In this document: positions 8,735-62,837 of the stretch, one piece after another
Layout: every line of letters begins with the position of its first letter
Numbering within the stretch: the stretch's first letter is position 1
Source: Craspedostauros australis
Lineage: Eukaryota; Bacillariophyta; Bacillariophyceae; Mastogloiales; Achnanthaceae
Assembly (NCBI GenBank): GCA_026770025.1
Contig: JAMXDE010000068.1
Span: 124,001 to 188,000, forward strand
DNA length: 64,000 nt
Direction: 5' to 3'
Notes under the pieces: generated by a model
Database searches by the model: none
Told to the model about the DNA's origin: nothing
The model's input: only the letters and a program-made list of their open reading frames with translations
Program-made: the position numbers and the translations under genes

Positions 8735-8809
8735 TTACGATTGAAATCCTACGTTTCTACCACCATCAGCACAGCAACACTCGCCATCACCCTTACCACC
8801 ACCATCATC

Positions 8810-41584: not shown

Positions 41585-41910
41585 CTACACTGCGAACAAT
41601 TCAGACCCGTTGTCCATCTGGTACTGCAGAATCACACACACGGCTTCGAAGGCGTGTACATGGCACTGGTGACCGTGGCGAAAGGTGTCATCCATGATCT
41701 TGAATTTTTTGATCCGACCGTTGAAGCTCTCGTGTCGGCAACGAGCTCGGCTCTTGAACTTGGCGAGGTGTCTCGAATCTGTGCCGCTTGGCAATGACAA
41801 TTTTTTGCGTTCGTTGGGTTCGCTTGTTTGGTATCCCCGGTCGGCGATGGCCAATTTGCCTCTTGCGATTTTGTCCTTGAGGCCTTGGCGGAAGATGGTT
41901 CTGTCGTGTG
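41585..41910 (-). pseudogene. 3' fragment of a third PIF/Harbinger transposase, cut by a copia LTR
   Basis: On minus the frame enters from the LTR and reads HDRTIFRQGLKDKIARGKLAIADRGYQ...RHESFNGRIKKFKIMDDTFRHG...VCVILQYQMDNGSELF, then stops. It keeps the block around the third acidic residue and the C-terminal helix, as in the transposases at 23304 and 36064. The first two catalytic blocks are absent. The break is exactly at the LTR terminus (41911), and I cannot find the missing 5' part elsewhere in the window. Confidence 0.85.
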
Positions 41911-42701
41911 TGTTGGCAAGTTCCGCTCACGGTAACCTACGATCGTGGAAGATGGTGTTGGTTGATAGTCGTTCGTTTGCTATTTCATTACTTGGCTACT
42001 CCGATGCTCTCGGTGTACGCCCGTTCTCTTGCCCGATGCTCTCGGCGCTTCAATCTGTTTCGTAGATTCAGTCTCCGACTATGAGTCGGGACGCGAGATG
42101 CTCTCTCGCTTCTCTCTGTATTCTCTCTCTCTCTCTCAACATCGTGTGCTCGTCGTACACGATACTCCGTGTTCGATACGTACTCCGTATTCGACACTCC
42201 GTTCATTCAGTACTGGCTCCTACTCCATGAGTACTCGCCATTTGAAGTTCACCTTCTGTATCCATGATCTTCATGGGTCATCGCATCTTCACCTTCTGCT
42301 CTGACTCGGAGACAGATGTCGACGTGGTGACATGTTGACATCCTGTCGACGTCAGTAGGTGTCCTTCTGCTCTCCAGATGTCACGTTCCATTGGTGATGC
42401 AGTGGTCTGTCAGATGATATCGTCATCTGAGGTTTAGTTGGGAAGTACCTCGAGATTCTCTTGGTACCATTGATGGATGGACGGACGATCTTCCAATTCT
42501 CTCAGAAATCGTCATTTGCAAATTTCCTCCAGAAATCTTGCCCCTTTTCGTGTGTTCCATTTCCCCTGTAATTCTGACGAATCACAGTATACTATCGACA
42601 CGAATGTAGTTATACCGTCCAAGTCCGTATGAGAGAATAGCGGGTGAACGATGCACATATACTCGTACATCTCGACATATACTCACATGTACATCTCGAC
42701 A
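41911..42701 (-). repeat. LTR at the 3' end of the 42722 element (LTR 1)
   Basis: It carries the variants GGTGTTGG, GTACGCCCGTTCTCTTG, CAACATCGTG, TACTCCATGAG and GTTCCATTTCC, which it shares with LTR 3 (52032) but not with LTRs 2 and 4. It also has its own change near 42260-42300. Confidence 0.9.
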
Positions 42702-42721
42702 CCCTTCCTATGTGCATTCGG

Positions 42722-45700
42722 TCATTCGAATGTTCTCGATGTGTCAAGGTACGACTTCTCGTGTTCACGTTGTAAGTCGGCCTTGATGTTCTTGGTGAAT
42801 CCGTCGCTTGTGTTTTGCTCGGATTTGACGAAAATGATCTCGATGGTTTTGTTGATTACCATGTTCCTCACGTAGTGATGGCGCACGTCGATGTGCCGCG
42901 ATCGTTGGGATGTCGATGGGTTCTTGGCGATGAAGATCGCTCCGATGTTGTCCATACGGACCTTGATCGGCGTCTTCACTGGGACGCCCACACTTTCGAG
43001 TAGCTGCACGACGAAGAAGATCTCCTTTGCCGCTTCGGAAAGGGCAACGTATTCTGCTTCGGATGAGCTGAGTGTGACGGCCTTCTGTGCCTTGGATCGC
43101 CAAAGGATTGGCACCTTGCACAGGTATAGGATGAATCCCCCTACGCTGATTCTCGTGTTCTTGTCTCCTGCATATTCGCTATCGCAGAAGAGCTCCATGT
43201 CCCAGCCGTCGTCGTCTGGACGCGCTGGATGGATCTTCAATCCATAGTCCTTTGTATCGATCACATACTTGATGATCCGATACATCTCCTTCATTGCGGC
43301 CTTGGTGGGCCCGATCAATACCTTGGAGAGTTCCCTCACAGGGTTCGCGATATCTGGTCGCGAGTGCTTGATGAGGAAGAGTAACATGCCGACGCCTCGG
43401 CGGTACTCGGCATGTTCTTCCGCTCCGACCTTTTGCAGTCCGTTATCTTCGGATGGTCGTACGATGATTTGACCCAGGGTTCCCGGTGTCCCATAGCGCT
43501 GCATCTTCTCAACCTTGGTTCCGAATTCTTCGATGAGATGTCGGATGAGGTGTGGTTGACGCAATGTCGCTCTAGTCTTGTCATGGTTCAGTTCGATGTT
43601 GCAGCTGAGGTAGTCTCCGAGTCCACGCTCGATTGTCACCTTGAATTTGCTGCCTTGGATGTCCTTCAGGAATGTCTCCAGTGCCTTGGAGTCTCCGCAG
43701 CAGAAGCAATCGTCCACGTAGATGGCCACGATCATGCTTCCTTCGTTCGTCTTCCTGTAGAACAGGCACGGGTCTGCCGCGCTCTGTTCGAAGTTGATAT
43801 TCTTGAGGGTCGATACCAACATCTTGAACCATTGCCTGGCGCTCTGCACAAGTCCGTAGATTGGCTTGTGTAGGGTCAGGGCTTCGTCTGGTTGATGATC
43901 CATCCCGTTGGGACAGTTCATGTAGATCTCCTCGTCGAGGTCTCCGTGTAGGAATGCCGTTACGACATCGACGAGTGTGCAGTCCATCTTCTTGATCAGC
44001 ATGATCACCATCATGACTCGATAGGTCACGTCGTGAATGACGGGTGAGTAGTGCTCTTGGAAGTCCACTCCTGCGACTTGTGAATAGCCACATGCAACGA
44101 GCCGCGCTCGATGTGTGCCGTCACGCTTCAGCTTGAAGACCCATTTGCATTTGCAGCATCTGCGGCCGCGTGGAATGGTGTCTCGTTTGATCTTGCTGTA
44201 CACTTTACGTGTGTTCATGGAGTCGAACTCCTTCTTGATGGCTGCTCGATATCCCTTTCGATGGATAGGGTCTGGATGATTGAAGGCTCCATCGAATGTT
44301 GTAGGTTCGATGTGCTTCTCTGGTTCTTTCTTCTCGTCCTGCATCGACAGTCCGATGTCGATCGCTGGTGATTCGGTAATGATTGCATTCATTCCGTACA
44401 GTCCTGTTGTGCTATAATGAGTGATCTCAATCTCTCCTTCATCTGCAATTTCTTCGTCATCTGTAGTTTCGTTGTTGGAGTCGTCGTTCTCCTCGTCGCT
44501 GAGTTCATCGCTGTCTTCGTTGGATGATGAATCGCTTTCATATCCTTCTTCCTTTCGACCTCGTTCGTTGTAGTCTGCGAGCTCACGCAGAGCTCTGGGA
44601 ATGCTCTTCCCTGTAGTCGGCTTGGGATTAGCTTCTCCCTTCCTGCCTCGTGCTTCGTGACGTCGGATCCTCTCCTTTCTGTCTATGTCACGTTTGCTTG
44701 GTTTGCTCGGCGGAGGTCTGGATGGTGTACCATGTGTAGACCTCGCTGGTGTGTTCGGAGGAGTGACGCCTGTGTCATTGTCGGCTTCGTCGCCGGATGG
44801 TGTGATCTCGTCATCCTCATGATTGGATTCGCTCCGATCTTCCTCGTCGTTATGGATTAGTTGAGTTACTACTCCATCGTCCTCATTGTCCTCATCGTCA
44901 CTGTCCGATAGGATATAGTATCTGTTGCTGTCAGCGAAAGATACTCTCTTCGCTTCCGATATTTGACGCGTTGCCGTCCTTGGCGTTGCTCCCTTCCGTC
45001 CGATGGTTGTGAAGCAGTCTGCGTCCGTCGTTCCTGTTTCATTGGATACGTTCGGTGCTGGTGCCCAGCCACGGAACTGTCCGTATGATTGATTGAGCCA
45101 CTTGATATCGCGTGAGCAGACGAGTGACTTGGTCGATGGTCTGTACATGTTGTAGACCCCTGATGCATGTTGGTGTGCATATCCGATGAACACCATCTCT
45201 TCTCCTCTGTTCTTGAGTTTAGCGGTGATCCCGCCGTAGGTAGTCTTCACAACACCCACCTCTCCGAAAGTGCGGAGTGCATCCGCGTATGGTGGATCAT
45301 TGCCGAAGAATTGTCGATGTGGTGACTCTTTCTTATTCTTCGCTACGGTGATGTTGGCGATGGCGGTGGCAGTGCTAGCAGCTGCTGCCCACAGGCCATG
45401 CCTATACTCTTCGTCGAGCTGTGCTCCGTTGAGCATGGAGCGGATCTTGGTGTAGAGGTACGCGAACTTGCGTTCTACTCTACCATTCTGTTGCGGTGTG
45501 TTCGATGCCGTGAATTCGAATTTCACGTTGAGTCCTGCATCGATGAGAATGTCCTGCGTGGATTTGTTCTCTCCGCTGTTGTCACCTCGGAAGATGATCT
45601 GTTGGTCACCAGTCTGTGACTTGATCGTCTGGATGAATCGTTTGATGTATCCTGGTTGATCACTTTTGTTCTTGAGAAAGAAACTCCAGCAGTGATCCGT

Positions 45701-48700
45701 GCAGTCGTCCACGATCAGGGTCCAGTAGCGTTTATCTCCGAAGCTTATGTGTTTAGTGTAACTAATGTCAATGAAGAGCCGTTCGCCGCGGCGAATTGCT
45801 CTCGGAATGGTTGCCTTCGGAATGTTCTTCACTCTTGCGTTCGCGACCGCGCAGTCGCGACATACCGGCATCTCGCCGATAATCTTCCATCCGTATTGAG
45901 CTGCCGTTCGCTTCATGGCCTCGAGTGGCGCGTGGCCGAGCATTCGATGCAAGCTCACCGCGCTGATCTCCTTGGATGGGTTCTTGACGAGGGCTGTGCA
46001 AGCCTTGTCGTCGTTCGTTGGCATGATGGGATGCATCTGCACTCCCGTGATGAATCCGTTGGCCGTGGGGAAGACTCGGTCGAATACGATCTTCGTTCCG
46101 GATCCGTTGATGATGTCCATCAGAATGCCGTTGCTACCAAGTTGGTAACCGTTGTACAGAGCCTTGTTCGTGGAGAAAAGGTTCACCGCCATTTTCGGTG
46201 TGTACTTCACATCATCAAGCCGGATGACGTGGCCAGTGTTGTCTCGTTGCTTGACCTTCAAGCGAATGGATCCCATTTTGGGAGAGTCCAGCTTCGTGCT
46301 GTCTCCCACTTGGACGAATGACTTGATGTGCCGCACGTTGAAGAGAGCGGCGTCTGAATTGACGATGTGACACGAAGCTCCACTGTCGGCGAGCCAGGTG
46401 TCCTTGTTGACCTTGTCCTTGTGCTTGGTGCTCAGCTCGTGGAGCTGCTCCACGGCTGCTGTGGCCATTTCATCCATGAGGCCGTCTGCCTCTTCATCTT
46501 CATGCACTCCATCTTCGTTGTATGGATTATGATTCTCATCAGCTTCGTCGTCGCTTGGTAGTTCAGCGAAGTGCGCTGGGACGGTGCTGTTGCGATGAAC
46601 TCCGGTGACCGTGTCATACGGTGTGACGCGTGGTCGCTCGCGCAGGAGCACCTGCATGCATCCTCCGAGCACGTAGTGCAAGTCCAGTTCTGAGAGTTCA
46701 TCCTCTTCGTTTGCTTGCAGTAGTCGATTGAGGATTGCTGCGTTTGCGAGGATCTCTTCAATCGATTTGAAGTTGTCGGATAGGATGGTGCTTACCATGT
46801 TCACCCAAATGTATCGCAATGGTTCGTTCACGAACCCTGGGAACATCGGTAATGCAGCTGTTAGGACCGCGTCGTAGATGAGCTGCTTCTGCATTCGTTT
46901 TGCAGTGATCGTTGGTTCTGGAAAGGTCTGGAGTCGGTAGATGTCGTCGACTCTTCTGGGATTCGGCTCCGGTGGGAATTGGATTCGAATTGGGTAGACG
47001 ACAGCTTCGTAGGGATTGAATGCGTCGTTCCGATGGTCCTCAGCTTCGTCGCTGTCCTCTTCATCGAAGATGCCCGTTCTCTCGTTTCGCATTGCTGCGG
47101 GAGGCGGCGCCTCGTCGCGGTTCATCCCGTCTCTGATGGTGTCGTCGTCATCTCCGTGTGCGCCGTCCTCGTCGGCGTCTTCGTCTGAGCCGTTCTCGTC
47201 GGCGTCTTCGTTGTCTTCGCTCATTGCCTCTTCGATGTCGCTATCGATGGCCTCGCTGTCCATCTCGGCTGCGTCGCCGTATGAACCGATCAGGTCGTGC
47301 GCGTTGAAGCAGCATTCGTAGCTCACCTCGCGTCTTGGATCCACCTCGTGGATGATTGGCTCCTCGTTGAGCCACTCCGGGACGATCTCATCGTCCTGTA
47401 CTTCGTCGTCACTTCCGACGCACTCGAAGTTATCGAAGAAGGAGTCTTCGATGTAGTCGTCGGACACCAACATGCAGAGCGGCATGTCCTTTGCCGAGAG
47501 TACCATCTCGTGCCCGCTCTTGTCGTGTCCTTCCGTAGCCGCGTTGGCTTGTTCGTTGGCCTTCTTGCTCTCGTTGAACTTCTTCTTTCGGCACTCCGCT
47601 TCGCGATGTCCGAAGATGCCACAGTAGTTGCACTTGCCTTTGAAGCCGCTTCCCTTGTTACGCTTTCCGTTCATTTTGTTGTTGTTGTTTTTCTTGTTGT
47701 TCGATTTCTTGCGTTCTGGACAATCGGCGGATCTATGGCCATACACGCCACAGTTGTGACAAGTACCCTTGAAGTTACCGGTGCTTGTGAAGCCGGTGTC
47801 GTTGCTCTTCGTGTTACTGTCTTGGAAATCGTCGACGTATGCCTTGCCTCCTCTGTGAGTAGCGTATGCAGTACGGAGTACTCCTCTGATCGTGTTGATG
47901 GTGACCAGTTCCGGATTGAACGTGAGTTGATGTTGGAAGTTCACGATGTGGGTTCTGTACTCGTTGCTCACCGTGCTGAGGATTTGCATGATCATTTCCT
48001 CGTCCGTGATCTCGTACTTGACATCGTGGAGACGCGATCGTAGACTCTCGAGTTGCGTGATGTAGATGTCGGGGTCCGTGTCTCTCTTCATCTTTTCGTT
48101 GTTGAATTGGCGCTTGAGCTTGATCTTCGTCACCGCGTCGGATGGTCGGAACTTCTCCGCGAGAACGTTCCACGCTGCGTGTGCGTCTCCTTCGGGGTAG
48201 TCGTCGGAGATGCACTGGTTGATGTACTGGATGGCTTGCTTGCCTTTTCCTTTCTCTGCATCCATCATGAGGATCAGATTGCTGAAGCAGTCGCATCCCA
48301 GCTCGTAGATCTCTTCCATCGCTTCCTTGGCTTCATCGTCGGCTGCCGCGATCTCGCTCACTGTTGGCACCTTGGTCTTGCCCAACATCACGTCTCTCGT
48401 CTTCTGTGCACGAGCGTATGCCTTCGCTTGGGACTCCCATGCGCTGTAGTCTTCTTGTTCACCGCTGAACATCGGCGCCTTAATGCGTCGCTTGTTCATG
48501 TTGGCTGATGTCGCCATGTTGATTCGTTGTTTCGTTGTTGGTGCGCTCGCGCCCTTGATTTCCGTCTGTTTCTGTGTTGTCACTTTTTCGATTTTCGCCT
48601 GTTGTTGCGCGGAGATTGTTTTCGTCACAAATTCTCCTCCTGGTGGTGTCTCACTTTTACCACTCTGTTTGGCTGTGCGAATGCTCTTCGTCACACCAGT

Positions 48701-48922
48701 CTCCTCTTGCTTGTACGCCTTGAGGATGCTCTCCTTCTCGCGGTGTAGCCTTGCAGACCGTTCCTCTTCGGTCTCGTCGATCGCGCTTGCGTCTGCGCCT
48801 GATAGGACAGTAGCCGCGGCTACTTCCTTCTCTTCTCGTGGTGGAGTCTCACTCGCACCTTCTTCTTGCTTGATAGCCAGTTGGGACAGAGGGATGTCTT
48901 TCAATTCCTCTTCCTCGCTCAT
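42722..48922 (-). CDS. Copia Gag-Pol polyprotein, family B, intact
   Basis: 2,066 residues in one frame from ATG 48922. An acidic N-terminus of ~140 residues precedes the Gag core (from MATSANMNKRRIKAPMF), with knuckles CHNCGVYGHRSADC (~386) and CNYCGIFGHREAEC (~432). An acidic linker and a ~240-residue unexplained domain follow (~560-830, with IWVNMVSTILSDNF...LHYVLGGCMQVLLRER). Protease is DSGASCH (~844). Integrase has LHRMLGH (~990), CRDC (~1021) and D,D,E in FIDIS, RGDNSGEN and NGRVERKF (~1049, 1112, 1146). RT has KWVFKLKRDG and YVDD (~1738). RNase H has FCDSEYAG (~1916), SSSEAEY (~1955) and RMDNIGA. It encodes all enzymes for reverse transcription and integration. No stop or frameshift seen. 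Confidence 0.96.
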   Translation of the reverse strand: MSEEEELKDIPLSQLAIKQEEGASETPPREEKEVAAATVLSGADASAIDETEEERSARLHREKESILKAYKQEETGVTKSIRTAKQSGKSETPPGGEFVTKTISAQQQAKIEKVTTQKQTEIKGASAPTTKQRINMATSANMNKRRIKAPMFSGEQEDYSAWESQAKAYARAQKTRDVMLGKTKVPTVSEIAAADDEAKEAMEEIYELGCDCFSNLILMMDAEKGKGKQAIQYINQCISDDYPEGDAHAAWNVLAEKFRPSDAVTKIKLKRQFNNEKMKRDTDPDIYITQLESLRSRLHDVKYEITDEEMIMQILSTVSNEYRTHIVNFQHQLTFNPELVTINTIRGVLRTAYATHRGGKAYVDDFQDSNTKSNDTGFTSTGNFKGTCHNCGVYGHRSADCPERKKSNNKKNNNNKMNGKRNKGSGFKGKCNYCGIFGHREAECRKKKFNESKKANEQANAATEGHDKSGHEMVLSAKDMPLCMLVSDDYIEDSFFDNFECVGSDDEVQDDEIVPEWLNEEPIIHEVDPRREVSYECCFNAHDLIGSYGDAAEMDSEAIDSDIEEAMSEDNEDADENGSDEDADEDGAHGDDDDTIRDGMNRDEAPPPAAMRNERTGIFDEEDSDEAEDHRNDAFNPYEAVVYPIRIQFPPEPNPRRVDDIYRLQTFPEPTITAKRMQKQLIYDAVLTAALPMFPGFVNEPLRYIWVNMVSTILSDNFKSIEEILANAAILNRLLQANEEDELSELDLHYVLGGCMQVLLRERPRVTPYDTVTGVHRNSTVPAHFAELPSDDEADENHNPYNEDGVHEDEEADGLMDEMATAAVEQLHELSTKHKDKVNKDTWLADSGASCHIVNSDAALFNVRHIKSFVQVGDSTKLDSPKMGSIRLKVKQRDNTGHVIRLDDVKYTPKMAVNLFSTNKALYNGYQLGSNGILMDIINGSGTKIVFDRVFPTANGFITGVQMHPIMPTNDDKACTALVKNPSKEISAVSLHRMLGHAPLEAMKRTAAQYGWKIIGEMPVCRDCAVANARVKNIPKATIPRAIRRGERLFIDISYTKHISFGDKRYWTLIVDDCTDHCWSFFLKNKSDQPGYIKRFIQTIKSQTGDQQIIFRGDNSGENKSTQDILIDAGLNVKFEFTASNTPQQNGRVERKFAYLYTKIRSMLNGAQLDEEYRHGLWAAAASTATAIANITVAKNKKESPHRQFFGNDPPYADALRTFGEVGVVKTTYGGITAKLKNRGEEMVFIGYAHQHASGVYNMYRPSTKSLVCSRDIKWLNQSYGQFRGWAPAPNVSNETGTTDADCFTTIGRKGATPRTATRQISEAKRVSFADSNRYYILSDSDDEDNEDDGVVTQLIHNDEEDRSESNHEDDEITPSGDEADNDTGVTPPNTPARSTHGTPSRPPPSKPSKRDIDRKERIRRHEARGRKGEANPKPTTGKSIPRALRELADYNERGRKEEGYESDSSSNEDSDELSDEENDDSNNETTDDEEIADEGEIEITHYSTTGLYGMNAIITESPAIDIGLSMQDEKKEPEKHIEPTTFDGAFNHPDPIHRKGYRAAIKKEFDSMNTRKVYSKIKRDTIPRGRRCCKCKWVFKLKRDGTHRARLVACGYSQVAGVDFQEHYSPVIHDVTYRVMMVIMLIKKMDCTLVDVVTAFLHGDLDEEIYMNCPNGMDHQPDEALTLHKPIYGLVQSARQWFKMLVSTLKNINFEQSAADPCLFYRKTNEGSMIVAIYVDDCFCCGDSKALETFLKDIQGSKFKVTIERGLGDYLSCNIELNHDKTRATLRQPHLIRHLIEEFGTKVEKMQRYGTPGTLGQIIVRPSEDNGLQKVGAEEHAEYRRGVGMLLFLIKHSRPDIANPVRELSKVLIGPTKAAMKEMYRIIKYVIDTKDYGLKIHPARPDDDGWDMELFCDSEYAGDKNTRISVGGFILYLCKVPILWRSKAQKAVTLSSSEAEYVALSEAAKEIFFVVQLLESVGVPVKTPIKVRMDNIGAIFIAKNPSTSQRSRHIDVRHHYVRNMVINKTIEIIFVKSEQNTSDGFTKNIKADLQREHEKSYLDTSRTFE

Positions 48923-48992
48923 TCAGCCTGCTGCTCTTGAATGATGTTCGTCTTCCTCGCACGATCCGATCCGCGGGCTCGCCCTGATCTAT

Positions 48993-49004
48993 CGTTTATA
49001 AACG
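48993..49004 (-). promoter_or_regulatory. Palindromic primer-binding-site region of the family-B copia
   Basis: CGTTTATAAACG, a perfect 12-bp palindrome, abuts the 5' LTR. It is the counterpart of CGTTTCGAAACG in family A. The next bases (ATAGATCAG) are identical in the 52032 element. Confidence 0.55.
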
Positions 49005-49798
49005 TGTTGGCAAGTTCCGCTCACGGTAACCTACGATCGTGGAAGATGGTATTGGTTGATAGTCGTCTGTTTGCTATTTCATTACTTGGCTACTCCGATG
49101 CTCTCGGTGTACGCCGTTCTCTCGCCCGATGCTCTCGGTGCTTCAATCTGTTTCGTAGATTCAGTCTCCGACTATGAGTCGGTACGCGAGATGCTCTCTC
49201 GCTCTTCTCTGTATTCTCTCTCTCTCTCAATATCGCGTGCTCGTCGCACACGATACTCCGTGTTCGATACGTACTCCGTATTCGACACTCCGTTCATTCA
49301 GTACTGGCTCCTACTTCGTGAGTACTCGCCATTTGAAGTTCACCTTCTGTATCCATGATGCTGATGCCCTTCGGTCATCGGATCTTTGCCTCCTGCTCTG
49401 ACTTGGAGACAGATGTCGACGTGGTGACATGATGACATCCTGTCGACGTCAGTAGGCGTCCTTCTGCTCTCCAGATGTCACGTTCCATTGGTGATGCAGT
49501 GGTCTGTCAGATGATATCGTCATCTGAGGTTTAGTTGGGAAGTACCTCGAGATTCTCTTGGTACCATTGATGGATGGACGGACGATCTTCCAATTCTCTT
49601 AGAAATCGTCATTTGCAAATTTCCTCCAGAAATCTTGCCCCTTTTCGTGTGTTCCGTTTCCCCTGTAATTCTGACGAATCACAGTATACTATCGACACGA
49701 ATGTAGTTATACCGTCCAAGTCCGTATGAGAGAATAGCGGGTGAACGATGCACATATACTCGTACATCTCGACATATACTCACATGTACATCTCGACA
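49005..49798 (-). repeat. LTR at the 5' end of the 42722 element (LTR 2)
   Basis: 794 bp. It shares the variants GGTATTGG, GTACGCCGTTCTCTCG, CAATATCGCG, TACTTCGTGAG and GTTCCGTTTCC with LTR 4 (57258-58051), which also has 794 bp. It is followed by GACCTA, the inverse of TAGGTC after LTR 4. LTRs 2 and 4 are thus the two ends of one original insertion. Confidence 0.92.
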
Positions 49799-50680
49799 GA
49801 CCTACCTCGAAGGGCGCGGCAGAGGTTTTGCAGTCCAGGCAGGTGGTGCCGCCAGGCGCCCCAGTCCAATGGGGGGCGATCGGCGACGCACTACGAGAAC
49901 TGGATCAAAACCGACGGCTACTCACTATCAAGCTGATCACCGGGGAGGCGCCTCTGGGCAAGCGTATGAAGCAGTGGGGCATGAGGTTATCTGACCAATG
50001 TCCAAGTTGCGACGATCGCGAGGACACTGCTCACTTTTGGCTGTGCAAGAACGTAGGCAGACGAGCGATAGCGAGAAAACATACACATGAGATACGACGA
50101 TGGATGAGAAAATACCCGACGAAGCCGGAAGTCGCTTCGATGTTGACGGCCATTCTGCGCAGTCAGCTAGACGGGACGGTCTATCTCCGATCGGCCCAGC
50201 AAGGCGGAGAACTCTACGACGCGATGCAACAGCAGCTGGCCGCCGGGGCGCAAGCTCTCCGGAAGGGCCTTGTTGTTGGGCGTTGGGAGCAAATACAGGA
50301 GGAGTATCTGCAGCAGGCGCAATCTCGTAAGTCCGCTGCAAAGTGGACCAGGCAGCTGATACGACGTATATGGCGCATCGCATGGGATCAGTGGGCAGCG
50401 CGCAACGATGATATGTTCAACAGTCAGGACTCGGCCGAAGCCGGGATGATTCAAGCTCTTCGAAACAGAGCAGAGTCACTCCGACTTCGCCTCGAGCAAG
50501 ACAATACCACACACGAACGCATGCTAAGAACGGCCCCGTCTCCCGAAGCGTACACTGCGCAGGTAGCAGTATGGGTGGAGCAAGCCGCACGAGTGCTGCA
50601 CGAACCGGCCGCCTCTGGCGCCCTGTTCAAGTGGCTTCAGCGTCGGCGACATCACCCAGCACCAGCGCCGCCAGCTTGAC
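49799..50680 (+). pseudogene. 3' part of the LINE ORF2, separated by copia insertion and inversion
   Basis: 293 codons read in frame from the LTR boundary (PTSKGAAEVLQ...) to TGA 50678-50680. A putative zinc site CPSCDDREDTAHFWLC lies at 49999-50046, typical of the region after RNase H in LINE-type polyproteins, followed by helical, Gln/Arg-rich sequence. The first bases GACCTA duplicate the last LINE bases at 58057-58052 (minus strand). Across that duplication the frame of the two LINE parts is continuous (..ASG-P-TSK..). The ATG at 49741 is inside the LTR and is not its real start. Confidence 0.9.
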
Positions 50681-50850
50681 AACACAGGCAGCTGCAGCAT
50701 CATGAATGAGATGCATACGACACACTACATGACAACACATAGATTCCGTGCTCCCTTCGTGCCACGCACGAAGTTTAAAGGAGGCGGAGAAAAGCGCCAC
50801 CGGCGCAGCCTCATAAGAGGGTTTAATCCTTGAGTTATTTATTTATTCAA
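50681..50850 (+). other. Presumed LINE 3' UTR and end
   Basis: A non-coding stretch after the ORF2 stop with GC-rich hairpin-like sequence (CGCCACCGGCGCAGCC) and a TTATTTATTTATTC tail at ~50832-50846. I take this tail as the likely LINE end. No poly-A run is visible. Confidence 0.4.
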
Positions 50851-51614
50851 GTATCAAATGTCATTGCGACTGTCTTTGTGACCTCATTCACGAATTCGAT
50901 TTCCACGCCTCAAGAAATGGGCTAGTCGTGATTATTTCCATTAATGGATTTCTCATTTCAATTATTGCTCTATAGAAGTGCGCTGGTCGCGACTGTTTCC
51001 ATTAATGCATTTCTCGTTTCCATTTTTTTCATAGAAGTGCGCTGGGCCCAATATGGTCTCATTTTTTGGTTTCATGGCATCGGTCACGGGACTCGTCATC
51101 CGCCTCGGCGGCAAGCTCGGAGAGTGATCGAAGTCGTCTGTGATGCGGAACCAAAACACGGGAGAACGAGCTTTGGGATCATCCGGGTCGGACCATCTGG
51201 CGGTCGGTCGGTGCGGTCATCCTGTCTTGTACGACGACACATAAGCGCCACCGATTTAGTAGTTACGTACAAGCTCGCAAGAGTCAGAATTCATTCTCAG
51301 CTTCATCGGTTCCTCACCCGCGAGTACTCGCCACAGTTCTCAATTTAGCGCACTCACGTCCTGCAATGTACGCGTGACTATCGTTGACACTACAGCAACT
51401 TGGATTGTTCTCTTCTACCCACACCGCTTGGCTGGATTTTTCTTCCTCGCTGAAATTCCAATGACAACAGCTTTCTCTGCACTTCGCTGATCCATTTAAC
51501 GGTGTTATGAATGTTGATGATACCAATCTTGTCGTGGATGGTATTTGATTCTTTTTTCTTGGTGGAGCAAGGACAATCCAGCAGATCACGAGAAGGCAGT
51601 TCCCCACGCAAGAA
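50851..51614. repeat. Non-coding region with diverged repeats
   Basis: AGAAGTGCGCTGG occurs twice (50974 and 51037), each time near TTTCCATTAAT/TTTCCATTTTTT. The stretch is related in inverted orientation to 41220-41420. No gene. Confidence 0.5.
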
Positions 51615-52031
51615 ATGAGTGATGCCACCTCTCCGTTTCCAAAGTCGTCCCACAAAATCAAAAGGACGACGATGAACTTCTCTTTTTCACCATCCAACAG
51701 CATGGCTGGACACCATCACCACAATCAACAGCCAACCCCTCCGTCCTCTTGCAACTATGTTCAACCTACCAACGCAAATCGCCCAACATCAGGAGCGAAG
51801 ATGATGCTCAGAGGCCTGAGAGCCCAAGCCGAGCCAACGAAGAACCTGCAGTTTGGGATTCGTCCCACGACGATCAGCACTGCACCCTCTGCCGTCAACA
51901 GCACTCACAAGAAGGCGCTCAGCCCACCATTTTTGGGCCTCCCAGGCGGTCACTTCTTCGACATCAACCAGCGCCATCTTCATGAGCAAGACAGCAGCCA
52001 CATCGAGCTCTCTTTTCGCGCAGCATTCGCC
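51615..52031 (+). pseudogene. N-terminal part of an unknown gene cut by a copia LTR
   Basis: Open from ATG 51615 for 139 codons (MSDATSPFPKSSHKIKR...PPFLGLPGGHFFDINQRHL...), then it enters LTR 3 at 52032. His/Asn/Pro/Thr-rich, with no recognisable domain. It is read toward the LTR, so its 3' part must once have lain on the other side. The transposase fragment at 41585-41910, next to LTR 1, is one candidate for the far flank, but nothing proves it. Confidence 0.35.
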
Positions 52032-52828
52032 TGTCGAGATGTACATGTGAGTATATGTCAAGATGTACGAGTATATGTGCATCGTTCACCCGCTATTCTC
52101 TCATACACACTTGGACGGTATAACTACATTCGTGTCGATAGTATACTGTGATTCGTCAGAATTACAGGGGAAATGGAACACACGAAAAGGGGCAAGATTT
52201 CTGGAGGAAATTTGCAAATGACGATTTCTGAGAGAATTGGAAGATCGTCCGTCCATCCATCAATGGTACCAAGAGAATCTCGAGGTACTTCCCAACTAAA
52301 CCTCAGATGACGATATCATCTGACAGACCACTGCATCACCAATGGAACGTGACATCTGGAGAGCAGAAGGACGCCTACTGACGTCGACAGGATGTCATCG
52401 TGTCACCACGTCGACATCTGTCTCCAAGTCAGAGCAGGAGGCGAAGATCCGATGACCGAAGGGCATCAGCATCATGGATACAGAAGGTGAACTTCAAATG
52501 GCGAGTACTCATGGAGTAGGAGCCAGTACTGAATGAACGGAGTGTCGAATACGGAGTACGTATCGAACACGGAGTATCGTGTGCGACGAGCACACGATGT
52601 TGAGAGAGAGAGAGAGAATACGAAGAGGAGCGAGAGAGCATCTCGCGTACCGACTCATAGTCGGAGACCAAATCTACGAAACAGATTGAAGCACCGAGAG
52701 CATCGGGCAAGAGAACGGGCGTACACCGAGAGCATCGGAGTAGCCAAGTAATGAAATAGCAAACAGAAGACTATCAACCAACACCATCTTCCACGATCGT
52801 AAGTTACCGTGCGCGGAACTTGCCAACA
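52032..52828 (+). repeat. LTR 3, 5' LTR of the truncated copia
   Basis: 797 bp, TGTCGAG...CCAACA. It shares diagnostic variants with LTR 1 rather than with its present partner LTR 4. Confidence 0.92.
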
Positions 52829-52840
52829 CGTTTATAAACG
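52829..52840 (+). promoter_or_regulatory. Palindromic primer-binding-site region of the truncated copia
   Basis: CGTTTATAAACG directly after LTR 3, as in the 42722 element. Confidence 0.55.
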
Positions 52841-52910
52841 ATAGATCAGGGCGAGCCCGCGAATCGTATCGTGCGAGGAAGACGAACATCATTCAAGAGC
52901 AGCAGGCTGA

Positions 52911-55900
52911 ATGAGCGAGGAAGAGGAATTGAGAGAAATCCCTCTGTCCAACCCGACTATCAAGCAAGAAGAAGGTGCGAGCGAGACTCCACCACGAGAA
53001 GAGAAGGAAGCAGCTGCGGCTACTGTCCTATCAGGCGCAGACGCAAGCGCGATCGACGAGACCGAAGAAGAACGGTCTGCAAGGCTACATCGCGAGAAGG
53101 AGAGAATCCTCAAGGCGTACAAGCAAGAGGAGACTGGTGTGACGGAGAGCATTCGCACAGCCAAACGAAGTGGTAAAAGTGAGACACCACCAGGAGGAGA
53201 ATTTGTGAGCAAATCAACCCTCGCGAAACAACAAGCGAAAATCGAAGAATCGACAACACAGAAACAGACGGAAATCAAGGGCGCGAGCGCACCAACAACG
53301 AAACAACGAATCAACATGGCGACATCAGCCAACGTGAACAAGCGACGCATCAAGGCGCCGATGTTCAGCGGTGAACAAGAAGACTACAGCGCATGGGAGT
53401 CCCAAGCGAAGGCATACGCTCGTGCACAGAAGACAAGAGACGTGATGTTGGGCAAGACCAAGGTGCCAACAGTGAGCGAGATCGCGGCAGCCGCTGGTGA
53501 AGCCAAGGAAGCGATGGAAGAGATCTACGAGCTGGGATGCGACTGCTTCAGCGATCTGATCCTCATGATGGATGCAGAGAAAGGAAAAGGCAAGCAAGCC
53601 ATCCAGTACATCAATCAATGCATCTCCGACGACTACCCCGAAGGAGACGCACACGCAGCGTGGAACGTTCTCGCGGAGAAGTTCCGACCATCCGACGCGG
53701 TAACGAAGATCAAACTCAAGCGCCAATTCAACAACGAAAAGATGAAGAGAGACACGGACCCCGACATCTACATCACGCAACTCGAGAGTCTACGATCGCG
53801 TCTCCACGATGTCAAATACGAAATCACGGACGAGGAAATGATCATGCAAATCCTCAGCACGGTGAGCAACGAGTACAGAACCCACATCGTGAACTTCCAA
53901 CATCAACTCACGTTCAATCCGGAACTGGTCACCATCAACACGATCAGAGGAGTACTCCGTACTGCATACGCCACTCACAGAGGAGGCAAGGCATACGTCG
54001 ACGACTTCCAAGACAGTAACACGAAGAGCAACGACACCGGCTTCACAAGCACCGGTAACTTCAAGGGTACTTGTCACAACTGTGGCGTGTATGGTCATAG
54101 ATCCGCCGATTGTCCAGAACGCAAGAAATCGAACAACAAGAAAAACAACAACAACAACAACAAAATGAACGGAAAGCGTAACAAGGGAAGCGGCTTCAAA
54201 GGCAAGTGCAACTACTGTGGCATCTTCGGACATCGCGAAGCGGAGTGCCGAAAGAAGAAGTTCAACGAAAGCAAAAAGAACAACGAACAAGCCAACGCGG
54301 CTACGGAAGGACACGACAAGAGCGGGCACGAGATGGTACTCTCGGCGAAGGACATGCCGCTCTGCATGTTGGTGTCCGACGACTACATCGAAGACTCCTT
54401 CTTCGATAACTTCGAGTGCGTCGGAAGTGACGACGAAGTACAGGACGATGAGATCGTCCCGGAGTGGCTCAACGAGGAGCCAATCATCCACGAGGTGGAT
54501 CCAAGACGCGAAGTGAGCTACGAATGCTGCTTCAACGCGCACGACCTGATCGGTTCATACGGCGACGAAGCTGAGATGGACGACGAGGCCAACGATAGCG
54601 ACATCGAAGAGGCCATGAGTGATGACGACGACGACGCCGACGAGGACGGCGCAGATGAAGACGACGAGGCAAGCCGCGACGAAATGCCTCCTCCTCAAGT
54701 TGGGAGATACGAGAGGACGGGAACCTTCATCAATCAAGGCCAAGGCGAAACGAACCGCGCAGCGGCGCCACCTCCTCCAGCGGCGGGGAACAACAGATCG
54801 GGCATCTTCGACGAGGATGACAGCGACGAATCCGAGGACGGCAATCATCCAGACGACAGCTTCAATCCAAACGAGCGTGTCGTCTATCCAGCGAATATCG
54901 ACTTCCCGGATATTGAGGATCCCAACAGTGTCGACTATCTACTCCGTCACACTGTCACACCAGACGCAACAGCAACGGCATTGACAATCCAAAAGCAGCT
55001 CATCTTTGACGATGTAATGGAAGCGGGGATGCGACTGTTCCCAGAAACCACACGAGGGGCACTCATGCCAATATGGGTGAACATGATGGGATCCATCCTA
55101 TCCGAGCACTTCGAATCAATCGAAGAGATCCTTGCCAATGCGATCGTCATCAACCACATACTGGAAGCCAACAACTCGGAAACGATCCCAGAAACGGATC
55201 TGCACTACATCCTTGGAGGATGTATGCGTGTACTCTTGCGAGAGCGATCACGCGTCCACCCATACGATCCAGCCACAGGATCACACCGAAGCAACACGAC
55301 TCCATCGGACTACGCGCAGCTATCCGATGAGACCGACGACGAACATCATGAGAATCCATGGAACAAATATGGAGCCCACATCAACGAAGAGGACGAATAC
55401 AACGTCATGACCGATACAGCTGCAGCAGCCGTGGAGCAGCTCCACAAGCTGAGCACCAAGCACAAGGACAAGGTTAACAAGGACACCTGGCTCGCCGACA
55501 GTGGAGCTTCGTGTCACATCGTCAATTCAGACGCCGCTCTCTTCAATGTGCGGCACATCAAGTCATTCGTCCAAGTGGGAGACAGCACGAAGCTGGACTC
55601 TCCCAAAATGGGATCCATTCGCTTGAAGGTCAAGCAACGAGACAACACTGGCCACATCATCCGGCTCGATGACGTGAAGTACACACCGAAAATGGCGGTG
55701 AACCTTTTCTCCACGAACAAGGCTCTGTACAACGGTTACCAGCTTGGTAGCAACGGCATTCTGATGGACATCATCAACGGATCCGGAACGAAGATCGTAT
55801 TCGACCGAGTCTTCCCCACAGCCAACGGATTCATCACGGGAGTGCAGATGCATCCCATCATGCCAACGAACGACGAGAAGGCTTGCACAGCCATCATCAA

Positions 55901-57257
55901 GAACCCATCCAAGGAGATCAGCGCGGTGAGCTTGCATCGAATGCTCGGCCACGCGCCACTCGAAACCATGAAGCGAACAGCCGCCCAATACGGATGGAAG
56001 ATTATCGGCGAGATGCCGGTATGTCGCGACTGCGCGGTCGCGAACGCAAGAGTGAAGAACATTCCGAAGGCAACCATTCCGAGAGCAACTCGCCGCGGCG
56101 AACGTCTCTTCATTGACATTAGTTACACTAAACACATAAGCTTCGGAGATAAACGCTACTGGACCCTGATCGTGGACGACTGCACCGATCACTGCTGGAG
56201 TTTCTTTCTCAAGAACAAGAGTGATCAACCAGGATACATCAAACGATTCACCCAGACGATCAAGTCACAGACTGGTGACCAACAGATCATCTTCCGAGGT
56301 GACAACAGCGGAGAGAACAAATCCACGCAGGATATTCTCATCGATGCAGGACTCAACGTGAAATTCGAATTCACGGCATCGAACACGCCGCAACAGAACG
56401 GTAGAGTAGAACGCAAGTTCGCGTACCTCTACACCAAGATCCGCTCCATGCTCAACAGAGCACAGCTCGACGAAGAGTATAGGCATGGCCTGTGGGCAGC
56501 AGCTGCTAGCACTGCCACCGCCATCGCCAACATCACCGTAGCGAAGAATCAAAAGGAGTCACCACATCGACAATTCTTCGGCAACGATCCACCATACGCG
56601 GATGCACTCCGCACTTTCGGAGAGGTGGGTGTTGTGAAGACTACCTACGGGGGGATCACCGCTAAACTCAAGAATAGAGGAGAAGAGATGGTGTTCATCG
56701 GATATGCACACCAACATGCATCAGGGGTCTACAACATGTACAGACCATCGACCAAGTCACTCGTCTGCTCACGCGACATCAAGTGGCTCAACCAATCATA
56801 CGGACAGTTCCGTGGCTGGGCACCAGCACCGAACATATCCAACGAATCAGGAACGACGGACGCAGACGGCTTCACAACCATCGGACGGAAGGGAGCAATG
56901 CCAAGGACGGCAACGCGTCAAGCATCAGAAGCGAAGAGAGTATCTTTCGCTGACAGCAACAGGTACTATATCCTATCGGACAGTGACGATGAGGATGACG
57001 AGTACGATGGAATAGTAACTCAACTAATCCATAACGACGAGGAAGATCGGAGCGAATCCAATCATGAGGATGACGAGATCCTACCATCCGGCGACGAAGC
57101 CGACGATGACACAGGCGTCACTCCTCCGAACACACCAGCGAGGTCTACACATGGCACACCATCCAGACCTCCACCGAGTAAGCCAAGCAAACGTGATATA
57201 GATAGAAAGGAGAGGATCCGACGTCACGAAGCACGAGGCAGGAAGGGAGAAGCTAAT
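52911..57257 (+). pseudogene. Copia Gag-protease-integrase polyprotein without RT/RNase H
   Basis: 1,449 codons of element sequence (the open frame runs on through the LTR to a stop at 57375-57377). It keeps both zinc knuckles, DSGASCH, the H-H-C-C site and D,D,E of integrase, all intact. Outside one block it is nearly identical to the 42722 polyprotein. Within about 54570-55440 it falls to roughly half identity. RT and RNase H are missing, so any further mobility would need these enzymes from another copy. It could still make virus-like-particle and integrase parts. Confidence 0.93.
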
Positions 57258-58051
57258 TGTCGAGATGTACATGTGAGTATATGTCGAGATGTACGAGTAT
57301 ATGTGCATCGTTCACCCGCTATTCTCTCATACGGACTTGGACGGTATAACTACATTCGTGTCGATAGTATACTGTGATTCGTCAGAATTACAGGGGAAAC
57401 GGAACACACGAAAAGGGGCAAGATTTCTGGAGGAAATTTGCAAATGACGATTTCTGAGAGAATTAGAAGATCGTCCGTCCATCCATCAATGGTACCAAGA
57501 GAATCTCGAGGTACTTCCCAACTAAACCTCAGATGACGATATCATCTGACAGACCACTGCATCACCAATGGAACGTGACATCTGGAGAGCAGAAGGATGC
57601 CTACTGACGTCGACAGGATGTCATCATGTCACCACGTCGACATCTGTCTCCAAGTCAGAGCAGGAGGCAAAGATCCGATGACCGAAGGGCATCAGCATCA
57701 TGGATACAGAAGGTGAACTTCAAATGGCGAGTACTCACGAAGTAGGAGCCAGTACTGAATGAACGGAGTGTCGAATACGGAGTACGTATCGAACACGGAG
57801 TATCGTGTACGACGAGCACGCGATATTGAGAGAGAGAGAGAATACAGAGAAGAGCGAGAGAGCATCTCGCGTACCGACTCATAGTCGGAGACTGAATCTA
57901 CGAAACAGATTGAAGCACCGAGAGCATCGGGCGAGAGAACGGCGTACACCGAGAGCATCGGAGTAGCCAAGTAATGAAATAGCAAACAGACGACTATCAA
58001 CCAATACCATCTTCCACGATCGTAGGTTACCGTGAGCGGAACTTGCCAACA
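57258..58051 (+). repeat. LTR 4, 3' LTR of the truncated copia
   Basis: 794 bp. Near-identical to LTR 2; I count only a handful of differences, for example within TTCTAATTCTCTCAG versus TTCCAATTCTCTTAG. It ends against the LINE at 58052. Confidence 0.92.
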
Positions 58052-61000
58052 TAGGTCCACTCGCGATCGCATGATAGCCGATTCGCGACATTTTCCTATC
58101 GGTAACGAAAGACACCTTCTCACCGTTGATGTGACCTGTGTGTATCGCGTCGGTTTGCATCGTGACGCGCGCCGCTCCTGCCACCTTGTCAGCTATCACA
58201 TTCATCCTGGCCCACCGGCTCAATTCGCTCCATTCTGCGCTGTCATCCTGGTGCCCCTTCACGTGGCGGCTGCTGATGTCGATTGGGAGTCCTATGCTCA
58301 TGTTTCGCACTGCTCGTTGTATATCCGCATCCGTCGAGGTTGGGGTCAGGTGCCATCCTGGGTCGAGAGCATGAAGGGCTCCGACGTTGTCACAGCCAAT
58401 CTCCGCGCTTCCGGAGCGTATCGCATACACTTCGCACACCACTTTCAGAATTGCCAGGACCCCGTAGATTCCCGCCAGCTCCGCTCGGTGCGACTGCATG
58501 ACTCCGTCGGTGGCCGGCGCAAGGTTGGCTACCAGCACCCGTGTGGTGGCGCCGCCGTATTCGGCCATAATCACCGCACCAGAAGCTCCCTTTCCGTTGG
58601 CCACAGACCCGTCGCTGCATGCTGTTACCGTCCCCTGACGCAACGCCGTCGCTATCGTTCCCAATTGTCCATCGATCGTGTGCTCCTGTATTGACCATGC
58701 TATGCCAGGTGGCATCATCTGTATCACTTGCTCCACTGTCGCTGCAGGCCGTGCTGACCACAGCTCTCCGTCCCCAGTTGCCGTTATGATCAACCGTTCT
58801 CCGTCGCGATATCCATCTGCTATGAATCTTGGTCGTGGCATGGCGCCTTCAGCTTGCTCATACATTTTCTGCCGCCGTCGCCGTGGGACGTGCCTCCAAT
58901 GCTGTGCCGGATTGTCGGAATCTTGTGCTCTATCTGTCGCTGGGTCCCAAAACACCTGAGGCTGCTGCGAGCTGAACCGTAACCATCTCCCCAGAGGCCT
59001 GTCTAATCTCAGAGTCGTCGACCGTGAGACTTGACAGAGCATGCGGATAGTTTGCTGCCACACCTTCCAGTACGCTGACCCTATGTGACCGACTGGCGGC
59101 CATTGGATGCAGGTCTTGCGCAGCGGCACATCTCCTGGTTGGCTCGCCGTCTCCAGAATCTGTCGACCATCTGCCGTTGCAATATCGGAGAGCCAAAACA
59201 CTTTCTTCGCTATCCTGCACAGGTTGACGATCTTCTCTTGGGTCTGGCCGAGGTTGAGGGCTCGGACGCGCTCCATGATCGGCGCATCCTGTTGTCTTGG
59301 GGCATGCAGTATCCCGTCCTCCCACTGCACTTTGATGCCCACCCCACTGGTTTCCAGCCATACGGCCTTTATCCATGAGTCCTCTGCCAGGTGCCCCCAT
59401 GCTGCTGGGTCTTGCCCAAACACATCGGGAATTCCCACCTGTATCGATATCAACTCCACTGAAGTTCGTAGTAGCCTGCCTGTCAGCGTGTCTGCGCACC
59501 AGTGCCTTGCTAGCACCTCGAGATGTTTTGCGATTTGTACGAAGTACAGGTGACGCACTCCGAATCCCAGTCTCTCGTGTGGCCCAAACACCAGCTGCCT
59601 TGATATGTTCCGCTGTATACCAGCCGCCGGGAGCGCTGCTTGGAGGACCGGCCGCATAATACGTTCTGTGGCCTTCTTGGTGAAAGTGGCGCTTGTGAGA
59701 GGATACTCTAGCGCTTTCCAAATCGTGGACTTCATTGCCACCCAGGCGTGCGTTCTCAGCATGCTGCTTCTCCTCATCTTGTCGGCCCATTTGGTTGCCT
59801 TGCCTGTATAGAACTTTTCGTTGTCGTCTTGCACCCCGTCATGTCGCACCATTACTCCTAATGCCTTGCGTGCTTGGTCCACGTGTAGGCGCAGTAGGGT
59901 CGATCGTTCCTGTGAGTCCGGCTTCCGTATGCTGATGCCTCCAGGCTGCTCTTCGACCGTCTTGTACTGCCATCTGGATCCATCCCATTTAAAGGACATC
60001 AGGTACCAATAACTTTTCTTCGGTTCGAGTGCTCCTCCGGTGGCGCGTAGCATGCCTTCCCACGCATCGACCACTTGCTGTATTTCTGTGATGCATGCGT
60101 CTGGGTCGTCGATTGCTGCCTTCACTGAGTGTATAAGGTCGGTGTCGTCCACAAAGGAGAAACACACCAGCCTTGTTACATCTGTCTTTGTTGGGTTTGT
60201 CGACTGAAAGCCGTACCCCTGCTCAGACATTGCCTTCATGATTGGTGAGCTCATCGCGACCCACCCGGCTGGTGAGATGCCCAGTCCTTGCAACAATCCC
60301 TGTAGCTTGGATCCCCGGTGAGGATACGTGCGTGTTGACTTTCCGAATCCCGTGAGCACGTGGTGTTGCATGGATTGGACGGCTGCTGTCACGCTTCGGC
60401 TTACCACTTGTGGTACTCCCATTTGGTCCATGCTGAGCTCGAGCGGGACGTGCGCCATTCTGTCATAGCAGCTTTTGGCATCGTTGGAGCATATGCAGCT
60501 GGTGGCCGCCGTCGCCCGTATGATGTCATCCGTCAGTCTGTTGTTGAGACTTACTTCCGCTGCGCTGCGTTGTTTGCGGCTGCCGTATTGCTCTTCTGGT
60601 AGTTGTCGCTCTGTTTCTGCGTGTTTCATCATAACCTTTCCTATCCACTTCAGGTTCGCGTTGAAATCACCCTCGACCAGGCTGATGGTTCTGAATCTGG
60701 TCACTCTGAAGTTTCCGGGCTCCTTCAGCAGCGTCACGTCGGTGCATGTGAGCCATCTGCGCAGATTGTACCCAGTTCGAAGGGATATTTCTCGCATAGC
60801 GGCGTCGACGATTGCAGCCTCCTCATGTTGTGCGTTGGCTTTCCAGAGTCCAAAATGCAGACCGGAGGGACCCGAGGTGGTCTTCTCTCGCGCTTTCCCC
60901 CATAGCTGTTGGTGGTTGGCTACGGTGATCTCGAGCTCCTCTTCCTTCCAGGTGCTAGCGCCCGGCCGGTCCAGTGTCTCGAGCAGCCTGTTGGTGTGCG

Positions 61001-62837
61001 GATCCATTCGGTGTTGGTGTCTGCGTTGAGTGGCTCGGATTCCGAGTCGGCGTATGTCTCTCGCGAAGGCTGGGCGTTGTAGTGGGGTGATGTAGGCTTG
61101 CCTGTATTTCGACTCGTTAGCTTTCATGCATTGGGATATCACTTGCTGCTCTTTGTCGTAAACTTCCTCTTCGCCGGACTTGTTCTCCGCTATGACCATC
61201 GTGACCTTGCTGCCTGCATCGTTGTTCCCGACCGCGCTGCGGATGGCCTTGTACATCTCGACTATCTCCTCGCGCTTCTGTATGGACCGTAGCGCGGCTT
61301 CCGACGATATGTTGCCATCTTTGGCCACTTCCTCCGCTCTGGCTTGTAGAAAGGTGCGTCGGTGGGCCCATGCCTCCTTTTTGGCCTGTTTCCATCGGGT
61401 ATGCGCGCGCTTCCGTTTATCTTCCAGCTCGTCGATACTCAACGTGGCTGTTCTCACCTCCACGTGTGCTTGCTTTTTCGCTCTTTCGTACCATCGTGCG
61501 CTTACTTTCTTGCCTTTCCGTCGTTTCCATGCGAGATTCCAGAATTGCTTCTCCATTGCTCTTCGCTTGATTTCGGGAGAGAATGGGACTTGGCCTGTAT
61601 ATATCGCGCGTGCTCCTTTCTCTGCGGTCAGCATAATGGTTGTTCGTTCTTGATCGATGTCTTCCAACCGACCTTTCTGTTCTGGCGTCATGTTGTTGTG
61701 GGTCCTGATTTCTTCTCGTAGCTTCTCCGCCCTTTGTCTCAGCTTATGTCGTTCATATTGTTTGCATACCTCTTTTTGGTATTTGCGCACCGTTTTCGGC
61801 TTGCTTAGCTGAACTCTTCGGCCTTCGAATTTTCGCGTGGGTGTACTGGCTGTGCCGAACACTGATTCTTGGTGCACTTCGATCCATGCCGTGCGATGAT
61901 CCCATGGTCCAAAGGCGCTGTACCCAGACCTTACCACCTGCAATGACGCCGGCACCCATATTCCATCGATGATCCTGTTGGAGTTTGCTCTGATGTTCGT
62001 GGAGATGCTTGGCGCTTCCGAGTGCTTGCTGAGGATAGACTCACGCATTCCGTGCTTGTGCATCATGGTTGCCATTTGTGATCGTGCTACCGGCATGTTG
62101 ACGTCGCCTCCTACTATCACCGTTTCTCCGGCTTCCTGCCATGCTTGCATCTCTGCCTCCAAATCTTGTATCAGCTGCTCGATGGGTGATGTGCGGATCC
62201 CTTGCGATTCGAGCCAGGATGCCTGTTGGTTGTAGACCGTTCCTGGACTTTGGCCTCCCCTGGTTGGGATGTACACGCTGACGAATCGAATGGTGATATC
62301 CTTTCTCCCTCGCACTGCAATGCTCGTCCATCGCCCCAGTTTCCTCGGGTCACTGCTGATGTCCTTGTATCGCCCCGTGATGTTTCCTATCATGGTGCAT
62401 GCTGTTCCACCCCATTGTTTTGGACCGCCCATGCGTTCTTGTTCGTTGAATGCCAGTGCGTGTCGTTCGGAGCGCACATGCTTGCGTGACCTTGCTTTCC
62501 ATGAATTCATCTTTCCCAGTTTTGACCAATTGACCCCTATCTCTGACAGAAGAGCCACGTCGATTTGCATCTGTTTGATCCACTGCCATAGGTCGTCGTT
62601 CTTCCAGTGTTTTGACTCGGCTTGGAGACACCCCACGTTCAAGGCTGCGATTCGTAATAAGGTGCTGCCTTTGCTGATCGTGGGATCTCCCCAGTGCCTG
62701 TCACGGAGGTCCTGCCCGTCGCGGCGCGTTTCCTCCAAGTTTGCATCTGTTGGGCTTGCGGGGGTGGCTGTCGTTGCTTCACCTGCCCCCAGCCTTGCAT
62801 TATTCTTGGTCCTCGCCACTGCCCGTGCTTGAGGCAT
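58052..62837 (-). CDS. LINE ORF2: endonuclease, reverse transcriptase, RNase H (3' part displaced)
   Basis: 1,595 codons from ATG 62837 to the copia LTR; the remaining ~290 are at 49799-50680. The N-terminal APE-type endonuclease has LNVGCL (~66), SEIGVNW (~98), VIVGGDVNMP (~240) and GPWDHRTAW (~310). RT is centred on FRTISLVEGDFN, SNDAKSCYDRM and FVDD (~896). RNase H has ACSDGSVANG (~1409), SHRAELAG (~1450), GCDNVGA (~1480) and HVKGHQDD (~1526). This order (endonuclease, RT, RNase H) fits the I/Tad-like LINE group. ORF2 starts inside the end of ORF1 in another frame (38-bp overlap). No internal stop. The interruption removes only the C-terminal zinc region. Confidence 0.93.

Follow-up and report, generated by a model that had tools for sequence, protein, structure and literature searches.

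Evidence for an inversion of about 14.8 kb between copia-type elements, marked by a split LINE and a second split repeat, in Craspedostauros australis

In the genome of Craspedostauros australis, a stretch of 64,000 nucleotides (hereafter the window; C66:124001-188000, contig JAMXDE010000068.1) contains two parts of a LINE (long interspersed nuclear element) that lie on opposite strands, each ending at a long terminal repeat (LTR) of a different copia-type element. How did one repeat come to be divided in this way? The two copia-type elements, A (41911..49798, minus strand) and B (52032..58051, plus strand), are homologous copies in opposite orientation. LTR1 (41911..42701) and LTR2 (49005..49798) are the 3' and 5' LTRs of A, and LTR3 (52032..52828) and LTR4 (57258..58051) are the 5' and 3' LTRs of B, each on the strand of its element. 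An inversion of about 14.8 kb between copia copies, with A and B at its two ends, is well supported. The best explanation, which we regard as probable, is that a copia-type insertion in the LINE, here called E2, took part in an LTR-LTR crossover that inverted the intervening DNA, and that a separate LTR-LTR deletion occurred at the same locus. The searched genome comprises 74.8 Mb in 90 contigs, and the contents of the window are eukaryotic. All evidence comes from this one assembly, where the unsplit forms of the LINE and of a second divided repeat, T, are known from paralogues only.

The split LINE and repeat T

The 3' part of the LINE (49799..50847, plus strand) begins at LTR2 with GACCTA (49799..49804), and the 5' part (58052..62837, minus strand, with an open frame from 62837) ends at LTR4, where the six adjoining bases read TAGGTC on the plus strand (58052..58057). 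These are the two copies of one 6-bp target duplication, now in opposite orientation. An unsplit paralogue of the LINE (C19:842325-843369) matches both halves, and the overlap of the two matches is exactly those six bases. When one copy of the duplication is kept, the LINE frame runs across the junction for 199 codons with no stop. Both the duplication and the continuous frame had been proposed in an earlier note on this DNA, and both proposals held up; the unsplit paralogue joins the halves precisely at the duplication. Among the matches of the genome searches, three paralogues (on C19, C3, and C4) have both parts, and in each of the three the parts lie next to each other, in a relative orientation opposite to that in the window. 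The element itself gives only a weak RVT_1 match (21.9 bits, below the cut-off of 29.6), and the name LINE is otherwise taken from the earlier note.

Identity to the C19 copy differs between the parts, being 96.8% for the 5' part over the 2249 bases compared (58052-60300) and 93.8% for the 3' part, which is 87.7% identical to the C3 copy. This unequal divergence from C19 (3.2% vs 6.1%) was considered as a sign of two separate LINEs and is no evidence of them, since the C19 and C3 copies show the same trend between themselves (5.1% and 9.6%).

Six bases is also the length of the target duplication of this copia family. In the sample of 60 LTR loci described below, a perfect 6-bp repeat flanks nine of the 13 two-LTR elements for which both flanks were available, and A is among the four that lack it. 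Element B, whose 3' LTR is without the usual inner motif, falls outside the 13. The 13th element (C55:196056-203910) had its flanks read by eye and shows no target duplication; for another of the four (C14:1649415-1657267) the LTR match starts two bases inside the LTR, which makes the flank reading less sure.

T, which the earlier note had not described, is a second repeat split in the same way as the LINE. Its 3' piece (40991..41910, minus strand; 93.3% identical to C65:110987-111908) ends at LTR1, and its 5' piece (50849..52031, plus strand; 96.5% identical to C65:105192-106376) ends at LTR3, so that each piece lies immediately to the left of its LTR. The 3' piece is DDE_Tnp_4-like, with a score of 24.2 bits just under the Pfam cut-off of 24.8. 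Both pieces are present in all five close copies of T (95% or more; on C65, C39, C10, C2, and C32), and in every one their relative orientation is the opposite of that in the window. Undoing a single inversion restores the piece order of the LINE and of T together and makes a much stronger case than the duplication alone. In four of the five close copies the positions corresponding to LTR1 and LTR3 are 4.6 kb apart, and in the fifth they are 7.3 kb apart.

Lineages of the LTRs and of the internal DNA

Element A has an open frame of 2066 aa (42722-48922) in which a domain scan in pieces identified Retrotran_gag_2, a zinc knuckle, Pol_BBD, SH3_retrovirus, and then RVT_2; no integrase core model was listed for this frame at an E-value of 0.001. 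The LTRs of the A/B family read TGTCGAG...CCAACA, starting with TG and ending with CA, and together with the 6-bp duplications they fit a Ty1/copia assignment.

The four LTRs were placed in a tree of 60 LTR loci, made up of 30 of the 45 matches of one genome search and 30 of the 40 matches of another. Each search scored 40 of about 1,230 first-look candidates, so nearer LTR relatives may exist. LTR2 and LTR4, each 794 bp long, have 4 differences over 794 positions and form a sister pair in the tree (84/89) within a starred four-LTR clade that also holds both LTRs of an element at C80:56981-64929 (the C80 element). Their description in the earlier note as one copia pair of equal length was thus borne out. 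The grouping that the note had named as evidence against itself, LTR1 with LTR2 and LTR3 with LTR4, was examined by approximately unbiased (AU) tests of sister pairs and rejected for both pairs (p 0.045 and p 0.007, respectively).

LTR1 and LTR3 show 26 differences over 791 positions, and each groups with different copies. The earlier note had observed that the two share variants against LTR2 and LTR4, and they do so at 11 sites. At nine of the 11, however, the shared state is also the one most often seen in the other 54 LTRs (the C80 LTRs left out), with counts at coding positions 481, 483, 563, 568, and 748 of 53, 54, 52, 51, and 54 of the 54, and because the shared states are mostly the commonest ones the agreement says little about common origin. 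The outer flanks (CGTGTG at LTR1 and TTCGCC at LTR3) do not match, and no second exchanged duplication pair was found. The proposal that LTR1 and LTR3 bound a single insertion is thus probably wrong; the flanks and the structure of T, with the two sites 4.6 or 7.3 kb apart in its copies, make it unlikely, whereas it is not rejected by the tree test taken by itself.

LTR1 is itself chimeric. Its coding positions 1-142 are identical to the LTR2/LTR4 clade, while from position 143 on other copies are nearest. A rare G at position 77 occurs in LTR1 and in seven other LTRs (8/60), all seven inside the 12-LTR clade of LTR2 and LTR4, and at position 143 LTR1 has T where LTR2, LTR4, and the C80 element have C. 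The longest identical run between LTR1 and LTR4 is 142 bp and lies at the very start of the LTR. The same first 142 columns are found in six of the 59 other sampled LTRs, all of the E2 clade. The switch within this one LTR is thereby placed between two sites only 66 bases apart (coding positions 77 to 143; 42559..42625).

The internal regions of A, B, and the C80 element, whose LTRs are the nearest to LTR2 and LTR4, were compared in steps of 200 columns. A is nearly identical to the C80 element in two stretches, one made up of LTR2 and the first 1.2 kb, the other reaching from 46.27 kb to the 3' LTR of A (0-4 differences per 200), and the nearest copies at both ends of its internal DNA belong to the E2 clade. 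B differs from the C80 element by 1.5 to 7% in most steps all the way up to LTR4. Over the last 1 kb shared by A and B, searched against the genome, A is 100% (rounded) and B 97% identical to the C80 element. The 5' internal DNA of B is nearest to that of two loci, L029 and L034, which are also the tree sisters of LTR3 (locus L052 was outside this distance comparison). B is without the 1.9 kb that precedes the 3' LTR in A. At the junction 57257..57258, the internal DNA of B (..GCTAAT) meets the exact edge of LTR4, and the polypurine-like AGGAAGGG present at this edge in other elements is absent. The 29-base string across this junction occurs once in the assembly.

Both present elements are consequently chimeric: A combines E2-type ends with the chimeric LTR1, and B joins another lineage to LTR4. 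This agrees with the earlier note, which had called them hybrids with mismatched flanks. The crossover that it placed inside the internal regions is at odds with these data, as the internal DNA of B is not of E2 lineage right up to LTR4. Since both ends of the internal DNA of A are E2-type and that of B comes from the partner, the crossover most likely lies in the LTRs.

History of the locus and competing explanations

The best history combines several insertions of copia copies with two LTR-LTR exchanges, one causing a deletion and one an inversion, in either order. E2, with LTR2 as its 5' and LTR4 as its 3' LTR, would have inserted into a LINE on the minus strand and generated the duplication GACCTA. 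Beside the 3' end of the LINE, a copy of T on the minus strand would have carried copia DNA in the orientation opposite to E2, with LTR3 as its 5' LTR. A second copia copy appears to have been nested in this first element, which we read from the exact LTR edge against foreign DNA, because insertion leaves such an edge. LTR-LTR recombination between the nested copy and another copia at a second site in T, separate from the inversion, could then have removed 4.6 kb of T together with the final 1.9 kb of the first element. After this deletion a single LTR (h) would stand between the truncated internal DNA of the partner (GCTAAT) and the 3' part of T (CACACG). A crossover between h and the 3' LTR of E2, in the first part of the LTR, would invert about 14.7-14.8 kb (from about 42.6 to 57.4 kb). 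Its products would be A, nearly all E2, with the chimeric outer LTR1 joined to T, and B, in which the 5' part of the partner is joined through LTR4 to the 5' half of the LINE. The deletion in T would also account for the lack of a second exchanged duplication pair. The outline of the earlier note, a copia in the LINE, an inverse relative nearby, and an inverted stretch between them, is thus retained and agrees with T; the parts that do not stand are its single LTR1/LTR3 insertion and its internal crossover.

Unequal recombination between LTRs gives rise to solo LTRs and to elements without a target duplication. It would account for the 4.6 kb lost from T and for the exactness of the LTR edges, although here the product also served as a partner in an inversion. 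Ten sampled LTRs, LTR4 and L052 not counted among them, have the inner motif of the element on neither side, and seven of the ten have a perfect 6-bp duplication, one within a CT repeat. These seven are solo LTRs, and LTR-LTR recombination therefore happens in this genome. A further solo LTR, C1:517018, has flanks (AGGGAGAA and GGAGAAGC) resembling the breakpoint of B, and was set aside because by eye the 60 bases on each side are unlike copia internal DNA.

Several observations weigh against this history or lower our confidence in it. LTR4 carries alleles at coding positions 199 and 208 that are unlike both LTR2 and the C80 element; these would not result from a single clean reciprocal crossover ahead of position 143, and a short conversion tract or two mutations are needed in addition. 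In its middle part, between about 48.6 and 46.3 kb, A matches the C80 element less closely, with 2-9 differences per 200 outside a divergent block (46466..47221, minus strand) whose DNA is 31-38% different from that of B and of the C80 element. The E2 origin of the middle part is therefore assumed, and a further exchange within it is possible. Next to LTR1, the 3' internal DNA of A is also close to C55:214769 (1.24%, vs 0.90% to the C80 element), and the LTR of that copy is the sister of LTR1 in the tree (98/76); A's side of the switch thus depends mainly on position 77 and the 142-bp identity. The AU test did not formally reject a sister relation of LTR1 and LTR3 (p 0.117). Exact LTR edges are the only trace of the nested insertion and of the second insertion in T, and the other junction of the nested copy had no match in the assembly with up to two mismatches. 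The support also comes from a single assembly and its paralogues.

The history preferred in the earlier note, in which two intact insertions (LTR2/LTR4 and LTR1/LTR3) crossed over within their internal regions and inverted the segment between, would account for the LTR2/LTR4 pair and its target duplication, for the 11 sites at which LTR1 and LTR3 agree, and for the AU value above 0.05, and a switch in the middle of A is conceivable as this part is not C80-like. Yet it leaves unexplained the unmatched outer flanks of LTR1 and LTR3, the 4.6 kb of T gone between them, the missing polypurine-like tract at the inner edge of LTR4, and the chimeric LTR1. Both the stepwise comparison and the search with the last shared 1 kb speak against it as well, with A E2-like up to LTR1 and B not E2-like near LTR4, and we consider it unlikely. 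About equally improbable is an assembly error, in which reads were misjoined at copia copies and the organism has no inversion. The copies are many and similar, and contigs C66 and C80 have ends within or close to this copia family. Complementary mistakes would nevertheless be needed at both junctions, the 142 identical bases shared by LTR1 and LTR4 at the switch are few for misjoining long reads, if the assembly was built from them, and the junction string of B is unique.

A single complex repair event, such as break-induced replication with template switches among copia copies, could have produced the deletion in T, the truncation of B, and the inversion together. The three do meet at the same LTR, and LTR4 looks patchy, but each join seen is placed either at an exact LTR edge or within an LTR, the outcome expected of simple homologous exchange between LTRs, and we give this explanation little weight, if slightly more than the preceding two. 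That there was no inversion, and that the two LINE pieces and the two T pieces are separate chance insertions, is extremely improbable in view of the comparison with the C19 copy. Both repeats are multi-copy, but the pieces end exactly at LTR edges with a matching 6-bp duplication, the LINE pieces add up to a single LINE whose frame stays open over the join, and the same coincidence would be needed for both repeats.

Known systems and further copies of the family

With the LTR-LTR inversion as the preferred explanation, the locus is a well-documented new example of ectopic recombination between transposable elements, a process already known. The closest parallel is the inversion 2z3 of Drosophila buzzatii, for which the relevant passages of PMC2775673 describe Galileo copies in opposite orientation at the inversion ends, both chimeric and with exchanged target duplications. 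The mechanism here is of the same kind: the copies have opposite orientation and are chimeric, and one duplication (GACCTA/TAGGTC) is exchanged, with no second pair found. In those passages, Galileo is a DNA transposon, the inversion is a natural chromosomal one, and the non-inverted chromosomes have single target copies, whereas the present case involves a copia LTR element and 14.8 kb, with one duplication recoverable and comparison with paralogues only. The effect of inter-element recombination on LTR trees is treated in passages on plant LTRs (PMC545599) and on the REannotate method (PMC2672092), according to which the LTRs of one apparent element failed to cluster in TRIM (terminal-repeat retrotransposon in miniature) families, while the copia families tested did cluster. 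The LTRs of one apparent element do not cluster here either. The passages present this as a problem of dating and annotation; here an inverted segment and a switch point can be placed. Among the papers listed by a literature search none is plainly about this locus, which carries little weight.

The locus is a legible small case of same-family repeats rearranging a genome, with two other repeats and one duplication marking the inverted piece. It also illustrates how recombination can produce an apparently full-length element with mismatched flanks, and how this leads dating and annotation by LTRs astray. A doubtful further suggestion is that the crossover, by giving the open-frame element A a chimeric 3' LTR, amounted to a promoter swap for a mobile element. 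If this were true, the promoter region passed to the next generation of A, if mobile, would derive in part from another lineage. No offspring of LTR1 was seen among the sampled LTRs, where the nearest has 17 differences.

The divergent block of A corresponds to 54618-55418 in B. Some 750-800 bp long and located between the zinc knuckle and Pol_BBD, it exists in two types, 45% identical as protein (108/241), while most other 200-column steps of A and B are 93-99.5% identical. No common place was seen among the matches listed for the internal DNA of A (at least 34) and of B (at least 39), and both types therefore look common. A carries the alternative type even though its outer parts are nearly identical to the C80 element, which has the type of B. 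A search of the block against the PDB gave a best E-value of 0.49.

Other copies of the family show features of their own. L034 (C66:210679-211479) and L029 (C80:107116-107915) have the same copia 5' LTR and the same flank, GTCGGATG in the coding direction. L034 lies near the end of C66 (211,677 bases) and L029 near one end of C80 (113,182 bases), which makes it probable that these contigs overlap or are adjacent at this point. The identical LTRs L022 (C76:125127), L023 (C76:29060), and L024 (C17:9576) share the 8-base outer flank CAGAGAGA, which suggests duplicated segments, not separate insertions. On the same contig as the window, the full-length copy L064/L065 (C66:53898-61834) has sister LTRs and unmatched flanks (GCAATG and CAGGCG) and is perhaps another rearranged copy. 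A copia cluster with mismatched flanks at C55:196056-215555 (L050, L052, L053, and L056), in which the oppositely oriented 5' LTRs L053 and L056 are sisters, is possibly a second rearrangement of the same kind. Elsewhere in the window we identified an open copia frame of 1901 aa (8741-14443) and a DDE_Tnp_4 transposase frame of 523 aa (36067-37635).

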